From: an uncultured Verrucomicrobiota bacterium
GTDB taxonomy: Bacteria; Verrucomicrobiota; Verrucomicrobiia; Limisphaerales; UBA9464
Assembly: GCA_903939515.1 (NCBI GenBank)
Contig: CAJAHH010000116.1
Location: 1-37,082, forward strand
Length of the DNA: 37,082 nt
Reading direction: 5' to 3'
Part shown: in pieces, positions 342-4,422 of the stretch
How positions within the stretch are numbered: the first letter of the stretch is position 1
How the letters are laid out: the number at the start of each line of letters is the position of its first letter
Position numbers and translations under genes: made by a program
Notes under the pieces: model-generated
Told to the model about the DNA's origin: nothing
The model's database searches: none
The model's input: the letters and a program-made list of their open reading frames with translations, nothing else

Positions 342-489
342 ACTGACCCCTTTTTCTGACCCCTTTTTTGGAACAAGGCCCACCATCGGACGGATGCCCG
401 TAGCGCAAAGAACTCTTTCAAATGACGTAGGTCGACGCGGTTCCAGCTCCAACTTTGACACTGGTCCAAATGTGAACCACCTTACCACC

Positions 490-840
490 ATGCCTACTCG
501 GTCCGCCGTCTCACCCGAGCTGGAGCTCAAGCGCTCCCTCGCTGCGTCGATCCTCCAGAAAATGGAGGAAGACAATCTCTCCATCAGCGCCTTGGCGGCA
601 CGTATCGGGACCGGACGCACCGCCGTCCGGCGCATCCTCGATGCTGAAAATACATCCATCACCTTCCGCTCGATGAGCCGCGCAGCCCACGCTGTAGGTC
701 TCAAGATCAAGCTGATCGCCGAGCCCATGTCGCCCGATGAACTCGGCCACCTCGCCCAACGCCTGGCCAAGAGCAAGACCTCAGCAACGTCCGCAAAGTT
801 GATCACACAAATCACCGAAGGCTTCTACGCCGGCTCTTGA
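490..840 (+). CDS. XRE-family HTH regulator, antitoxin-like
   Basis: A 116-residue DNA-binding protein of the helix-turn-helix XRE/HigA type. The HTH lies near residues 28-60 (ISALAARIGTGRTAVRRIL) and is followed by a helix and strand segment (SMSRAAHAVGLKIKLIAEP) typical of this group. I chose the ATG at 490 because the upstream in-frame part (394-489) has no family-like sequence and begins in the repeats. The stop (838-840) overlaps the ATG of the next gene in TGATG, which implies translational coupling. Antitoxins of this class usually pair with a RelE/HigB-type toxin. None is seen upstream, and the coupled downstream gene is the only candidate partner. The family call is from the HTH; an antitoxin role is inference. 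Confidence 0.75.
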   Translation: MPTRSAVSPELELKRSLAASILQKMEEDNLSISALAARIGTGRTAVRRILDAENTSITFRSMSRAAHAVGLKIKLIAEPMSPDELGHLAQRLAKSKTSATSAKLITQITEGFYAGS

Positions 841-1082
841 TGCCGAAGGTCCAACGCAAAGACATCCCAAGGGCGCTTTTGGGGCATCTGCTCCAACGGA
901 TCGCCGAGCGCAGCATCGACGCTCTGGCCCTCAACTCTTTGGCCGTCTGGCTCGACACCAATCCCGAGGTGCCGGACGGTGATTGGTTCAAGCGTTTTCC
1001 TTCGATGACCGTTTGCGGCCGGGGTGTCCTGATCAAAACGTTTCTGACCCCGTCCCAAGTCCCGATTGGAGCGGAATTGTGA
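840..1082 (+). CDS. small protein of unknown function coupled to the XRE regulator
   Basis: An 80-residue protein whose ATG overlaps the regulator's stop by one base. It has a predicted helical N-terminal half (ALLGHLLQRIAERSIDALAL), a proline/aspartate turn (EVPDGDWFKRF) and a compact C-terminal half with MTVCGRGVLIKTF. There is no signal peptide, membrane segment or known nuclease motif. The tight coupling and the clean protein-like sequence argue that it is real. I have a loose memory of similar small proteins beside XRE regulators but cannot name a family. It may be a toxin, a co-regulator or an accessory antitoxin part. It is not homologous by eye to RelE, HigB, HipA or PIN. Confidence 0.6.
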   Translation: MPKVQRKDIPRALLGHLLQRIAERSIDALALNSLAVWLDTNPEVPDGDWFKRFPSMTVCGRGVLIKTFLTPSQVPIGAEL

Positions 1083-1367
1083 TCCTTTCTATGAGACGGA
1101 AACCAGGTGAGGAAATGGTTTTCGATCCTAGATCGACCGGGCGGACGAAGAATGCTTTCCCTCGGGACTCTCGGACAGTTTCGGCGCACCCGGGTTCGGC
1201 TCCGCCGGTGTTGGCTGAAGTAACGCACCTGACGGCGATTATCGCGCCATCCTCGACTCCCGAGCCGGGCAATAGGAATCCCAGCCCGCCGAGATCAATG
1301 ATTGCAGGCGGGCAGAATCTGAGTGAGAGCTCCAGTGAGGAATACGATCGAGCAATCCCTTTAAAGG

Positions 1368-1430
1368 TTCCCGTTCGGGAATTATTCGGAGCGCTCGGAC
1401 GTTTGTGGAACACTAATTCCCTTACGGGAA
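1368..1430. promoter_or_regulatory. pair of inverted repeats upstream of hipBA, candidate operators
   Basis: TTCCCGTTCGGGAA at 1368-1381 and TTCCCTTACGGGAA at 1417-1430 share the arms TTCCC and CGGGAA. Their centres are 49 bp apart. HipB and related XRE antitoxins bind inverted repeats of this size upstream of their own operon, so two equal sites suggest cooperative autoregulation. No footprint or expression data are available, so the role is inferred. Confidence 0.45.
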
Positions 1431-1464
1431 CATTTCAATTGCCGGCCTATCGAACGCGGAATAG

Positions 1465-1480
1465 ATTACCGATCGGTAAT
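1465..1480. promoter_or_regulatory. 16-bp perfect palindrome abutting the hipB start
   Basis: ATTACCGATCGGTAAT is a perfect palindrome whose last base is directly followed by the ATG of hipB (1481). It occupies the place where a Shine-Dalgarno would sit, and no purine-rich site is visible there. It could be a repressor operator or, in RNA, a hairpin that limits hipB translation. The palindrome is seen directly; the role is inferred. Confidence 0.5.
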
Positions 1481-1690
1481 ATGGACATCGTTGACTCCAA
1501 AGCTCTCGGTGAGACGGTTCGTTTGGCCCGGAAGCGGTTGAAGGTCACCCAGAAGGACCTCGCATTGGCTTCCGGCACCGGTCTGCGTTTCATCATCGAG
1601 TTGGAGCAGGGAAAACCTACCTGCCAGCTCGGCAAAGCCTTGGGAATTCTTCAGGCCCTCGGATTGCGCCTCAAAGTGGTCGAATCATGA
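1481..1690 (+). CDS. hipB: HipB-type antitoxin, XRE family
   Basis: A 69-residue antitoxin of the HipBA type II module. The HTH covers residues 10-45 (ETVRLARKRLKVTQKDLAL, then GLRFIIELEQGKPTC), with the usual ending in which helix 5 leads into a hydrophobic tail (ALGILQALGLRLKVVES). The length agrees with short HipB proteins. The reading frame stays open upstream, but the family match begins at ATG 1481. The stop overlaps the hipA start as ATGA (1687-1690), which is the standard coupled order antitoxin then kinase. HipB is expected to bind DNA upstream and hold HipA inactive. Confidence 0.88.
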   Translation: MDIVDSKALGETVRLARKRLKVTQKDLALASGTGLRFIIELEQGKPTCQLGKALGILQALGLRLKVVES

Positions 1691-2946
1691 AGCGCCTCGT
1701 CGTGTACCTCAACGGGGTGCGGGTGGGCGTTCTTTTCGACGCCGAGGAGCCGGCATTTGCCTACGACGCCGACTGGCTGGCAACGGGCCCGGGCTTTCCG
1801 CTGTCGCGACAATTGCCCCTTAAGAAAGAACCCTTTTCCGGTCGCGCGGTGCGCGCTTTTTTCTCGGGCCTTCTTCCCGAGGCGGAACCGCGCGATCGAA
1901 TCGCTTCAATCCTCGGAGTCAGCGGCGGCAATGACTTTGCGATTCTAGAACGGATCGGCGGGGACTGCGCCGGAGCCGTTTCGCTCCTTCCGGAAGATGT
2001 GCCAATGGCTGCTTCGCGAACCGGGGCGCTTCGTTGGCTGGATGAACCAGCTCTGGCATCCATCGTGGAGCGGCTCCCTCAGCAGCCTCTCATGGCGGGT
2101 GAATCGGGACTCCGACTTTCTCTAGCGGGGGCACAGGTCAAACTTCCGATGATTGTCGCGGAGGATGGCGCTCCAGCCGAAATGCGGGTCGCGCTGCCGT
2201 TGGACGAAACACCGAGCACACACATTCTCAAACCGGAGCCAGCGCGTTTTCCCGGATTGGTGGCCAACGAAGCCTGGTGCATGGCCCTGGCTCGCGAGGT
2301 CGGACTCAGGGTGGCCGAATGCCACCGACAGATCATCGGCAAGACCCCGTGCCTTATCATCAAACGATACGATCGGGCTGCGGGGCCAGATGGCAGTGTC
2401 CAGCGATTGCATCAGGAGGATTTTTGTCAGGCACTGGGGTTTCCCGCCTCCCGCAAGTATCAGCAGGAAGGAGGGCCCTCTCTGAAGGACTGCTTTAGCC
2501 TGATCCGCGAGTGGTCGTCGGTACCGGTGATCGACATTCGTGACTTTCTGGACGGGGTGATCTTTGCCGCGCTGACCGGCAACGCGGATGCACACAGCAA
2601 GAATTTTTCATTCTTGTACTCGGCGAAAGAGCGCCGCCTGGCACCGCTCTACGATCAGGTTTGCACCCTGGCTTGGCCCGAGCTCTCGAAACGTCTCTCG
2701 ATGAAGATCGGAACCGCGGGAACGCTGGCGGAGGTATCGCCGGAGCATTTCCAGCAATTGGCAAAAATTGCTGGGCTGAGTTGGCCCATGGTGCGTCAGC
2801 GCTTGAAAGAAATGGCCGATCGCCTTGCGGAAGCCTGTCGTCGGTTCGATGAATCACCCGAAGGTGAAGCGGCGGCGCAGGTTCCAAGTGTTATCGTACT
2901 AGAACGAGCCGAACGCATGGCGCGTTTGGCTCAAAGGGCTTCCTGA
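1687..2946 (+). CDS. hipA: HipA-type serine/threonine kinase toxin
   Basis: A 419-residue HipA kinase, close to the usual ~420-440. In E. coli the enzyme phosphorylates glutamyl-tRNA synthetase and so causes growth arrest. Visible parts are an N-terminal subdomain (LVVYLNGVRVG, SGLLPE at 60-65), the glycine-rich loop SLAGAQVKLP (145-154) whose serine corresponds to the autophosphorylated Ser150 of E. coli, ATP-site lysine in THILKPE (K182), CLIIKRYDR (222-230), catalytic LTGNADAHSKNFSF (D301) and the metal-binding LYDQ (D323). All key residues are present, so it should be active. The start overlaps hipB by four bases. The true target in this organism is unknown; HipA homologues differ in substrate. 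Confidence 0.93.
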   Translation: MKRLVVYLNGVRVGVLFDAEEPAFAYDADWLATGPGFPLSRQLPLKKEPFSGRAVRAFFSGLLPEAEPRDRIASILGVSGGNDFAILERIGGDCAGAVSLLPEDVPMAASRTGALRWLDEPALASIVERLPQQPLMAGESGLRLSLAGAQVKLPMIVAEDGAPAEMRVALPLDETPSTHILKPEPARFPGLVANEAWCMALAREVGLRVAECHRQIIGKTPCLIIKRYDRAAGPDGSVQRLHQEDFCQALGFPASRKYQQEGGPSLKDCFSLIREWSSVPVIDIRDFLDGVIFAALTGNADAHSKNFSFLYSAKERRLAPLYDQVCTLAWPELSKRLSMKIGTAGTLAEVSPEHFQQLAKIAGLSWPMVRQRLKEMADRLAEACRRFDESPEGEAAAQVPSVIVLERAERMARLAQRAS

Positions 2947-3128
2947 ACGCTGCTGACATAATGGTCCAACGCGGCCATCGCATTGGCCGTGATGACGGTT
3001 CGTCCGAGAGAAATCCTATCAAGTCTGGTAGGTCACGAACGCATTCGGCCTCATCTGGAAGAAGGAAGAAACGCGAGCGCTCATACAGGAAGAAAACGCA
3101 CCCCAAGAACACGGCAAAACCGCGGTTT

Positions 3129-3443
3129 TCAAACCGGCAGATTTACGTGGGTTTCGGAACGGTGCTGGCAGTGGCTGGCCCGGTTGGCAGCGACAGCAGC
3201 CTTCTCGGCCTCGATGCCAGGAAACGCCACCTCCGACTGGAGGCAGCCGCGCAATTCACTGACGCCCCGAACGCGCCAGGCCACGAGCTTCTCTCCTTCG
3301 ACCGACCACGAGAGTCGAGACCCTGCTTGCACCGGGAACATCCGGCGAACCTCCTCAGGGATGGTTACCTGCATCTTTGTGGTTACAGTCGTGACGGGAC
3401 TTGCCGTGCTTTGAGGGAGACCTGAGCGCCGGGTAAGGCTCAA
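3129..3443 (-). CDS. AbrB/MazE-like antitoxin, no toxin seen
   Basis: A protein of up to 104 residues with a SpoVT/AbrB swapped-hairpin DNA-binding domain: VTTKMQVTIPEEVRRMF at about residues 20-36, then VQAGSRLSWSVEGEKLVAWRV. The C-terminal part (SELRGCLQSEVAFPGIEAEK) resembles the toxin-binding tail of VapB/MazE-type antitoxins. The longest frame begins with TTG at 3443; the ATG at the MQVTIP codon would cut the first strand, so an upstream TTG is preferred but uncertain. A PIN or MazF toxin should follow downstream (below 3129). That stretch has no such gene, so this is an orphan or the remainder of a decayed pair. Confidence 0.7.
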   Translation of the reverse strand: MSLTRRSGLPQSTASPVTTVTTKMQVTIPEEVRRMFPVQAGSRLSWSVEGEKLVAWRVRGVSELRGCLQSEVAFPGIEAEKAAVAANRASHCQHRSETHVNLPV

Positions 3444-3561
3444 GCGACTCGCAATTCTCTCTGAGTGACAGTCCGATGAATGGAGTTTCCAGAGATACGA
3501 CGCCTTGAAAGGAGTTCCCTAGGACCGTATTCGCCTCACCGGACGGGGCCTATTTCCGCAC

Positions 3562-3655
3562 GAGGCAGCCCGCCAAGATCACGGGCAGTGATGAATGCGT
3601 TCCACCACTCGCGTTTCCAAAATCGGAAACCGTTTCCTGAGCCCGTTCCCTGACC
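3562..3655 (+). repeat. dispersed imperfect repeat, copy B
   Basis: This copy matches the copy at 112-205 in the same direction and 4468-4556 in the opposite direction. Blocks CGCCAAGATCACGGG, ATGAATG, TTTCCAAAATCGGAAA and CGTTTCC/GCCCGTTCCC are visible. It ends about 40 bp before the stop of the higA gene, so with copy C it brackets the HigBA module in inverted orientation. The rest of 3444-3694 holds no gene. Confidence 0.6.
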
Positions 3656-3694
3656 TCGCCGCAGTTCCCTGCCCCGTCGCCTATGCAGTCTTCT

Positions 3695-4117
3695 TCAGAT
3701 GAAGAGTTCCGGGCTAACGCGGAAGTGGTCTGCCAGTTTGCGGATGTGCGCCACGGTCAGATTTCGATCGCCCCTGAGAATCATGGCCCCGAGGTTCCGG
3801 CTCCCACCCAGGAGCCGCGACAGATCGGCAGCCGACATCCCGGATTCGTCGAGCAGATGTCTCAGCCGGGCCCGCACCCCCACCTTGGGCCAACGCAGGT
3901 GCGCCCGATCGTAGTCCTCGAGCAATCCGCAGAGCAGGTCGAAGTAATCCCGTTGATCGGCCGTGAAGTCCTCCTGCCACAAGGCCATCGCATCGGTGAC
4001 CTCCGCCACGTTGGCGTACTCCACCCGGTCGTGGACCGGGCGCGGCATCTGAAGCCGGCAAAGCCCCGCGTAATCCTTCGGCAATGCCGGAAACTGCAGT
4101 CCATTCTTAGCCTTCAT
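3695..4117 (-). CDS. higA: HigA-type antitoxin, XRE family
   Basis: A 140-residue antitoxin. The N-terminal half carries helices that fit toxin binding (EYANVAEVTDAMALW, then FTADQRDYFDLLCGLLEDYD). The XRE HTH is at about residues 84-135 (LRHLLDESGMSAADLSRLL, then NLTVAHIRKLADHFRVSPELF). This layout, N-terminal region plus C-terminal HTH, is that of HigA proteins encoded after HigB. The ATG at 4117 overlaps the toxin stop as ATGA, which fixes the start. The frame stays open upstream to 4441, but that part is the toxin gene read in another frame. Sequence and length look intact. Confidence 0.88.
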   Translation of the reverse strand: MKAKNGLQFPALPKDYAGLCRLQMPRPVHDRVEYANVAEVTDAMALWQEDFTADQRDYFDLLCGLLEDYDRAHLRWPKVGVRARLRHLLDESGMSAADLSRLLGGSRNLGAMILRGDRNLTVAHIRKLADHFRVSPELFI

Positions 4118-4422
4118 AACTCGTCTTTCCATTTGTCCTTGCTGTACTCGGCGTGCGTGAAGAAGCGCAACGTGTACACCATCCCGTGGTCGAAGTGGAC
4201 GGCCGCGATCAGCCGGTAGGTGCTGCCGCAACCGTTGACCACGATGACCGACTTCCCGCTTCCCACCGCCACCAGATCCGCGCTCGGATAAACTCGCCGC
4301 AGATCGGACAGATTCTGCCAGCGGGCCGCTCGCACGGTGGCAATCTAGATCGTCAGGTACTTGGCAGCCTTCGGATACGCCATAGCGGCGTCCCTGATGA
4401 AGCCTTCTTTGATAATCCGCAC
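4114..4422 (-). pseudogene. higB: HigB-type toxin with an in-frame TAG
   Basis: Reading from GTG at 4422 gives a start MRIIKEGFIRDAAMAYPKA, then a TAG (complement of 4345-4347), then IATVRAARWQNLSDLRRVYP and onwards through STYRLIAAVHFD and LRFFTHAEYSKDKW to the stop overlapping higA. Without the stop the product would be about 101 residues, the normal size of HigB mRNA interferases, and tryptophan would fit well at the stop (one base change, TGG to TAG). The 73-residue part after a downstream GTG (4335) lacks the N-terminal helices, so the toxin is probably inactive. Other options are readthrough, a sequencing error or reassigned use of the shorter form. Confidence 0.8.

Follow-up and report, generated by a model that had tools for sequence, protein, structure and literature searches.

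A probable type II toxin-antitoxin pair from an uncultured Verrucomicrobiota bacterium, in which one antitoxin tail is found behind interchangeable fronts

Antitoxins consist of separable DNA-binding and neutralising modules, and neutralising parts also occur alone (PMC10440598, in the text available). In the PanA (Panacea) antitoxins treated in that text, modules have been exchanged in evolution, the neutralising part can be separated from the DNA-binding part, and one antitoxin domain meets many toxins. DUF2281 antitoxins have VapC/PIN partners, and a DUF2281 antitoxin of VapC was confirmed by toxicity and rescue assays, according to the available part of PMC12654330. The DUF397-XRE pairs of actinobacteria are predicted toxin-antitoxin systems in which an XRE protein of about 300 aa, with an uncharacterised C-terminal part, lies beside a small predicted toxin (PMC2701414, as far as its available text describes them). 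DUF4258 toxins, of the RelE/ParE type, are listed with unknown target and with MqsA partners in fusions (available text of PMC11980606). In HipBA, an XRE antitoxin lies upstream of the HipA kinase in a start/stop-linked operon.

The locus described here is part of the window, the whole stretch of 37,082 nucleotides that was analysed, from a host genome of 4.7 Mb. On its forward strand, an XRE gene (the proposed antitoxin) runs from the ATG at 490 to the TGA at 838–840 (490–840) and encodes 116 aa, made up of an XRE helix-turn-helix front and a C-terminal tail. Its stop codon overlaps the ATG at 840–842 of a small gene on the same strand (the proposed toxin; 840–1082, 80 aa, without family match) in the sequence TGATG (838–842), an overlap that the earlier note had pointed out and that is confirmed here together with both frames. 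The pair resembles HipBA in its upstream XRE antitoxin and start/stop-linked operon, and HipB chains come closest to the HTH part of the window's model; the proposed antitoxin carries an additional tail, however, and the partner is not the HipA kinase but an 80-aa protein without a Pfam match, for which reason HipBA identity was rejected. With the DUF397-XRE pairs, which can be likened by description only, it shares an XRE protein that has an uncharacterised C-terminal part and a small predicted toxin as neighbour. Most of the tail proteins introduced below have a DUF2281- or VapB-like front (under cut-off), but the toxin and the C-terminal tail differ from those of DUF2281 antitoxins, and the window copy has XRE instead. 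The separable modules recall PanA; here, in contrast, the toxin-tail pair is fixed and the antitoxin front changes. DUF4258 and RelE-ParE toxins are of similar size and share a faint likeness with the first helix of the small protein, but there is no significant similarity over its whole length, and the partners are different.

Two small adjacent genes that are co-directional and, from the overlap, apparently linked in translation are what is expected of a type II toxin-antitoxin operon. The spacing between them at 54 sites was −8 in 19, −1 in 9, +2 in 10, +3 in 10 and another value in 6. In seven comparisons per gene, dN/dS was 0.13–0.34 for the XRE gene and 0.07–0.26 for the small gene, indicating that both are under purifying selection. 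The close relatives (9 loci, from a pattern search of GTDB contigs) are metagenome-assembled genomes; several of their records are labelled Verrucomicrobia or Opitutia, and some of these labels look misassigned.

The pair is followed by a HipBA pair (1481–2946) and, on the opposite strand, by a HigBA pair (3695–4335), so that three toxin-antitoxin-like pairs are found within 3.9 kb (490–4335). HipB, HipA and HigA likewise adjoin the pair at one other locus (L032). The HigB frame of the window (4114–4356, minus strand) is broken by a TAG near the N-terminus; in the relatives' loci L232 and L233, frames that match it at 96% are open over 119 aa, and what the window has may be a shortened or decayed toxin. 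Direct repeats occur upstream of the pair (85–356), with three copies of a 56-nt unit (186–341) and five copies of a 22-nt unit containing TGACCCCTTTT.

The antitoxin-like HTH attributed to the upstream protein from its sequence was borne out by several searches. Pfam gave HTH_37 (E=3.1e-4) and HTH_3 (E=0.0036), both short of the curated cut-offs, and PHROGs gave phrog_1373 (transcriptional regulator, E=4e-10). The AlphaFold model, made with 9 sequences, has a mean pLDDT of 75.6, with blocks at 79–92 over residues 11–70, a weak linker at residues 74–78, and a tail modelled as helices 82–94 and 98–110. HipB antitoxin chains are among the first ranks when this model is searched with Foldseek (probability 1.00 but E=0.15), and no match was found at E≤0.001.

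The small protein contains both DGDWFKRF and MTVCGRGVLIKTF, as quoted in the earlier note, which had seen no known toxin motif in it. The database searches agree: no family was matched in Pfam or PADLOC, and the best matches in NCBIfam (E=0.045), PHROGs (E=0.28) and PDB sequences (E=0.029) are not convincing, leaving it without a characterised family in these libraries. Used as a single query, it has homologues in 40 of 194 genomes of relatives at E≤0.01, and profile A1, built from 32 members, matches 57 of the order's 320 genomes at E≤1e-6, the host genome being included in both counts. This occurrence across the order, together with purifying selection, indicates a genuine gene family. In a sample of the phylum, the same profile matched at least 4 of 387 genomes (the host included, one of the four doubtful), a lower bound because scoring was mostly limited to 14 candidates in each genome. 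Twelve columns are invariant in the 32 members (R6, P10, R24, P42, V44, P45, W49, C59, G60, T67, L69, G77), and H16, K51 and F53 are among those conserved at ≥90%. The AlphaFold model (8 close sequences) is poor (pLDDT 52.9), with helices at 11–24 and 28–40 and strands at 48–53, 56–61 and 64–68, and Foldseek found no useful fold match for it (best E 0.86).

Homologues of the small protein were absent from 72,556 plasmid records and, by pattern search and tblastn, from viral contigs; a phage search gave one weak match (PP885688.1, 261558–261779; 33.8%, E=7e-3). Mobility, which is common in toxin-antitoxin systems, is thus not supported. The phage match falls close to the beginning of a long gene of Tunturiibacter phage Tunturi_5 whose annotation is MutT/NUDIX hydrolase.

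In the upstream protein, the constant part is a C-terminal tail of about 37 residues ending in GFY(G/A), with the pattern ..L..LA.RM..S.DPAE..RLK..I.RGFYG or its XRE-type equivalent. In the window this tail, the proposed toxin-binding part, is matched by the tail profile at 721–831 (forward strand; residues 78–114, ending GFYA). Profile A4, composed of 24 non-XRE partners only, also picks up the window's XRE tail (721–828, E=8.9e-7). Its matches occur in 99 of these 320 genomes at E≤1e-4; among those listed, many span the N-terminal half only, so this half is also found in other proteins. The front is variable. Close relatives have an XRE partner, and in more distant relatives the partner is a protein, mostly of 69–73 aa, without a recognisable HTH (MTAxxVIEEIxxLPPxEQ...) or else one of about 59–68 aa with a short basic leader. 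By reading, the fronts at 55 sites are XRE in 8, DUF2281-like (VIEEI-type) in 43 and a short leader in 4. Among five non-XRE partners tested, one resembles DUF2281 (E=0.0034, under cut-off) and one VapB (E=0.14); the TilS substrate-binding domain of Pfam matched one of the five above cut-off (E=2.2e-5) and two more under it, which is taken as a probable helical likeness.

The pairing itself is strict. From 148 raw sites, 100 with distinct junction sequence were retained, identical junctions being merged (L034 with the window among them) and loci fetched for other families being left out. All 55 intact small genes are preceded by a tail gene, 54 by profile and one (L117) by eye, its tail lying under the profile threshold but being legible. 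The tail profile was built from 28 of the 54 sites, and the other 26 were not used for it; L118 is counted as intact, although its match has no proper start codon and the frame of its partner runs on. Both the conserved pairing and the presence in the antitoxin of a separate conserved part for the toxin, as suggested by one tail on three fronts, are features of type II systems. An undescribed two-gene regulatory or toxin-antitoxin pair, as had been proposed, fits these findings and the lack of a characterised family, but the partner is conserved as an XRE gene at only 8 of the 55 sites. In most genomes the small protein is therefore not conserved beside XRE genes, an outcome that the earlier note, taken literally, would have counted against the proposal; yet the tail accompanies it more strictly than had been expected. 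No description of this pair was found in the literature searched, which is no proof of its absence from print.

The small protein might instead belong, as a divergent member, to the DUF4258 branch of RelE/ParE (BECR) toxins, the likeliest candidate among toxin families, in which case the pair would extend a toxin family already known. This is rather unlikely. The idea was raised by eye and by one weak Pfam match, 1 of the 32 small-protein members matching DUF4258 (PF14076) at E=0.0098, and no other RelE-type family was among the Pfam matches of the 32. It gains from the local hhalign score against DUF4258 (20.7–20.9), which is above all shuffles (300 and 120), and from the helix-helix-strand-strand-strand order of the poor model. 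However, the alignment is limited to residues 10–34 (the first helix), with an hhalign probability of 12%, the global score is 10.5 with 2 of 300 shuffles higher, and a helical control, antitoxin profile A4, reaches 19.3 against DUF4258 and likewise exceeds its own shuffles. Scores against BrnT (9.5), ParE (9.9) and HigB (14.1) were lower, those for HigB and ParE falling inside the shuffle range, and identity with HigBA / gp49-HTH was rejected. By reading, the partners of DUF4258 genes in relatives also differ from the tail proteins; in L061–L087 these genes are followed by frames that, by eye, we take to resemble MqsA-type zinc proteins or DUF2283 proteins. After these controls, and because the antitoxin control scored nearly as high, membership in DUF4258 is not claimed.

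Decay of the pair is one-sided. A full tail occurs with an intact small gene at 53 sites, and with a partial (18) or absent (6) small gene at 24; truncated tails are accompanied by a partial small gene once and by none in four cases, and 10 sites have a small-gene fragment without a tail. This count sets aside five contig-edge sites and L173, the second piece of one broken tail. The reverse loss, an intact small gene whose tail is lost, was found at no site, against 24, once L113 and L117 had been read (both have intact small genes, and partners below the script thresholds but legible by eye). No front half was matched at three of the 24 sites (L047, L125, L172), and L051 is ambiguous, leaving about 20 with a whole partner; the sites are related by descent, and assembly errors may lie behind some of the frameshifts. 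Twenty tail matches were chosen for the absence of a neighbouring small-gene match, and the sequence downstream was read by eye. Small-gene remnants were detected by profile in 8 of the 20 (L131=L159, L135=L158, L157=L162, L164, L165, L166, L169, L171) and by eye in L177, and no other toxin was recognised by eye after any of these tails. At L170 (G608:C43), a cut-short tail gene is followed by an XRE-like frame in place of the small gene.

Upstream of the XRE-type genes (10 loci) the sequence is variable, except for a block next to the start with the consensus TTTGACACTGGTTCAAAANTGAACCACC. In the window, the −35 hexamer TTGACA (455–460) and the candidate −10 hexamer CACCTT (478–483), both on the forward strand, are 17 nt apart, and the −10 ends 6 nt before the ATG at 490. 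Comparison of XRE-type loci (without L118, which had been misfiled among them) finds TTG in register in 10 of 10, A2 of the −10 in 10 of 10, and T6 in 9 of 10. The spacer is filled by an imperfect palindrome, TGGTCCAAATGTGAACCA (462–479, forward strand), which is a candidate operator. The pattern TGGTNCAAANNTGNACCA, derived from XRE-type loci and then scanned over all loci collected by then, immediately precedes the start codon in 11 distinct XRE-type loci (the window, L003, L004, L005, L035–L038, L040, L041 and L174). It was not found in the decayed XRE-type remnants L059 and L173, and the sequence of L034 ends before its position. One variable arm position of the palindrome pairs in 5 of the 11 (T/A in L004, L037 and L040; A/T in L005 and L041) and is unpaired in the other six, the window among them, so the operator is only partly symmetric. 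Within the host genome the pattern occurs once, as does a reversed control. A simple consensus scan for promoters detected none in front of the XRE gene, and the layout proposed here rests on the comparison of loci.

In the non-XRE loci (e.g. L006, L007 and L008; 100 nt upstream), A2 and T6 of the −10 are found exactly at −12 in 35 of 45, and 33 of the 45 additionally have TTG at a spacing of 16–18 nt; in other registers the full combination occurs 0.28 times on average and 3 times at most. Such a layout is compatible with leaderless transcription in the family, to which the XRE branch would have added an operator. Autoregulation, which is expected of type II systems, may act through the conserved imperfect palindrome in the 11 XRE-type loci; a recognisable DNA-binding front is missing from the partner at 47 of 55 sites.

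The best reading of the pair is a type II toxin-antitoxin module, which we consider likely in view of the strict pairing, the constant tail on interchangeable fronts, the one-sided decay, and the promoter palindrome in the branch with a DNA-binding front. Purifying selection on both genes, the confirmed DUF2281 antitoxin of VapC and the separable modules described for antitoxins also speak for it. In such a module, the 80-residue protein would be the toxin, and the tail of the upstream antitoxin (about residues 78–114) would bind and neutralise it; the contact is placed in this constant part because related genomes put the same tail behind other fronts. The XRE domain would dimerise on the palindrome at 462–479, between the −35 and −10 hexamers, and shut off the operon, transcription would probably start at or beside the antitoxin ATG, and the TGATG overlap would couple translation of the toxin to that of the antitoxin. 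Binding, neutralisation, repression and toxicity are what we infer, and for a toxic protein neutralised by its partner the one-sided decay gives indirect support. Most small type II toxins act by RNA cleavage or another block of translation, and by that analogy our guess, an even bet, is that this one does so too. It is conceivable, although we lean against it, that the small protein acts as a toxin whose fold or target is new to toxin-antitoxin systems, held by a tail that occurs behind at least three fronts within one order, in a leaderless operon that in the XRE branch has its whole operator within the promoter spacer.

Alternatively, the upstream protein could be a repressor and the 80-residue protein its non-toxic co-regulator or anti-repressor, which would bind the tail to switch the regulator. 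This reading accounts for the strictness of the pairing, for the tail and for the operator no less well than a toxin would. It is nonetheless improbable, since the 47 of 55 partners without a recognisable DNA-binding domain (with DUF2281-like or short fronts) leave nothing obvious to co-regulate, and the one-sided loss, always of the small gene, is more simply explained by a toxin. Reversed roles, with a toxic upstream protein and a small antidote, are hardly credible: gene order alone does not decide the roles, but the upstream gene has outlived a small gene now partial or absent at 24 sites, and its product has an antitoxin-like modular layout.

As a putative toxin-antitoxin module, the pair contributes a candidate toxin family with strict pairing, from a phylum that has been little studied. 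It also offers a natural experiment on antitoxin modularity, in which a fixed toxin-tail pair is combined with three interchangeable fronts, one of them with its own operator. If this is true, the tail alone would neutralise the toxin, and the XRE type would repress its operon, whereas the other types may not.
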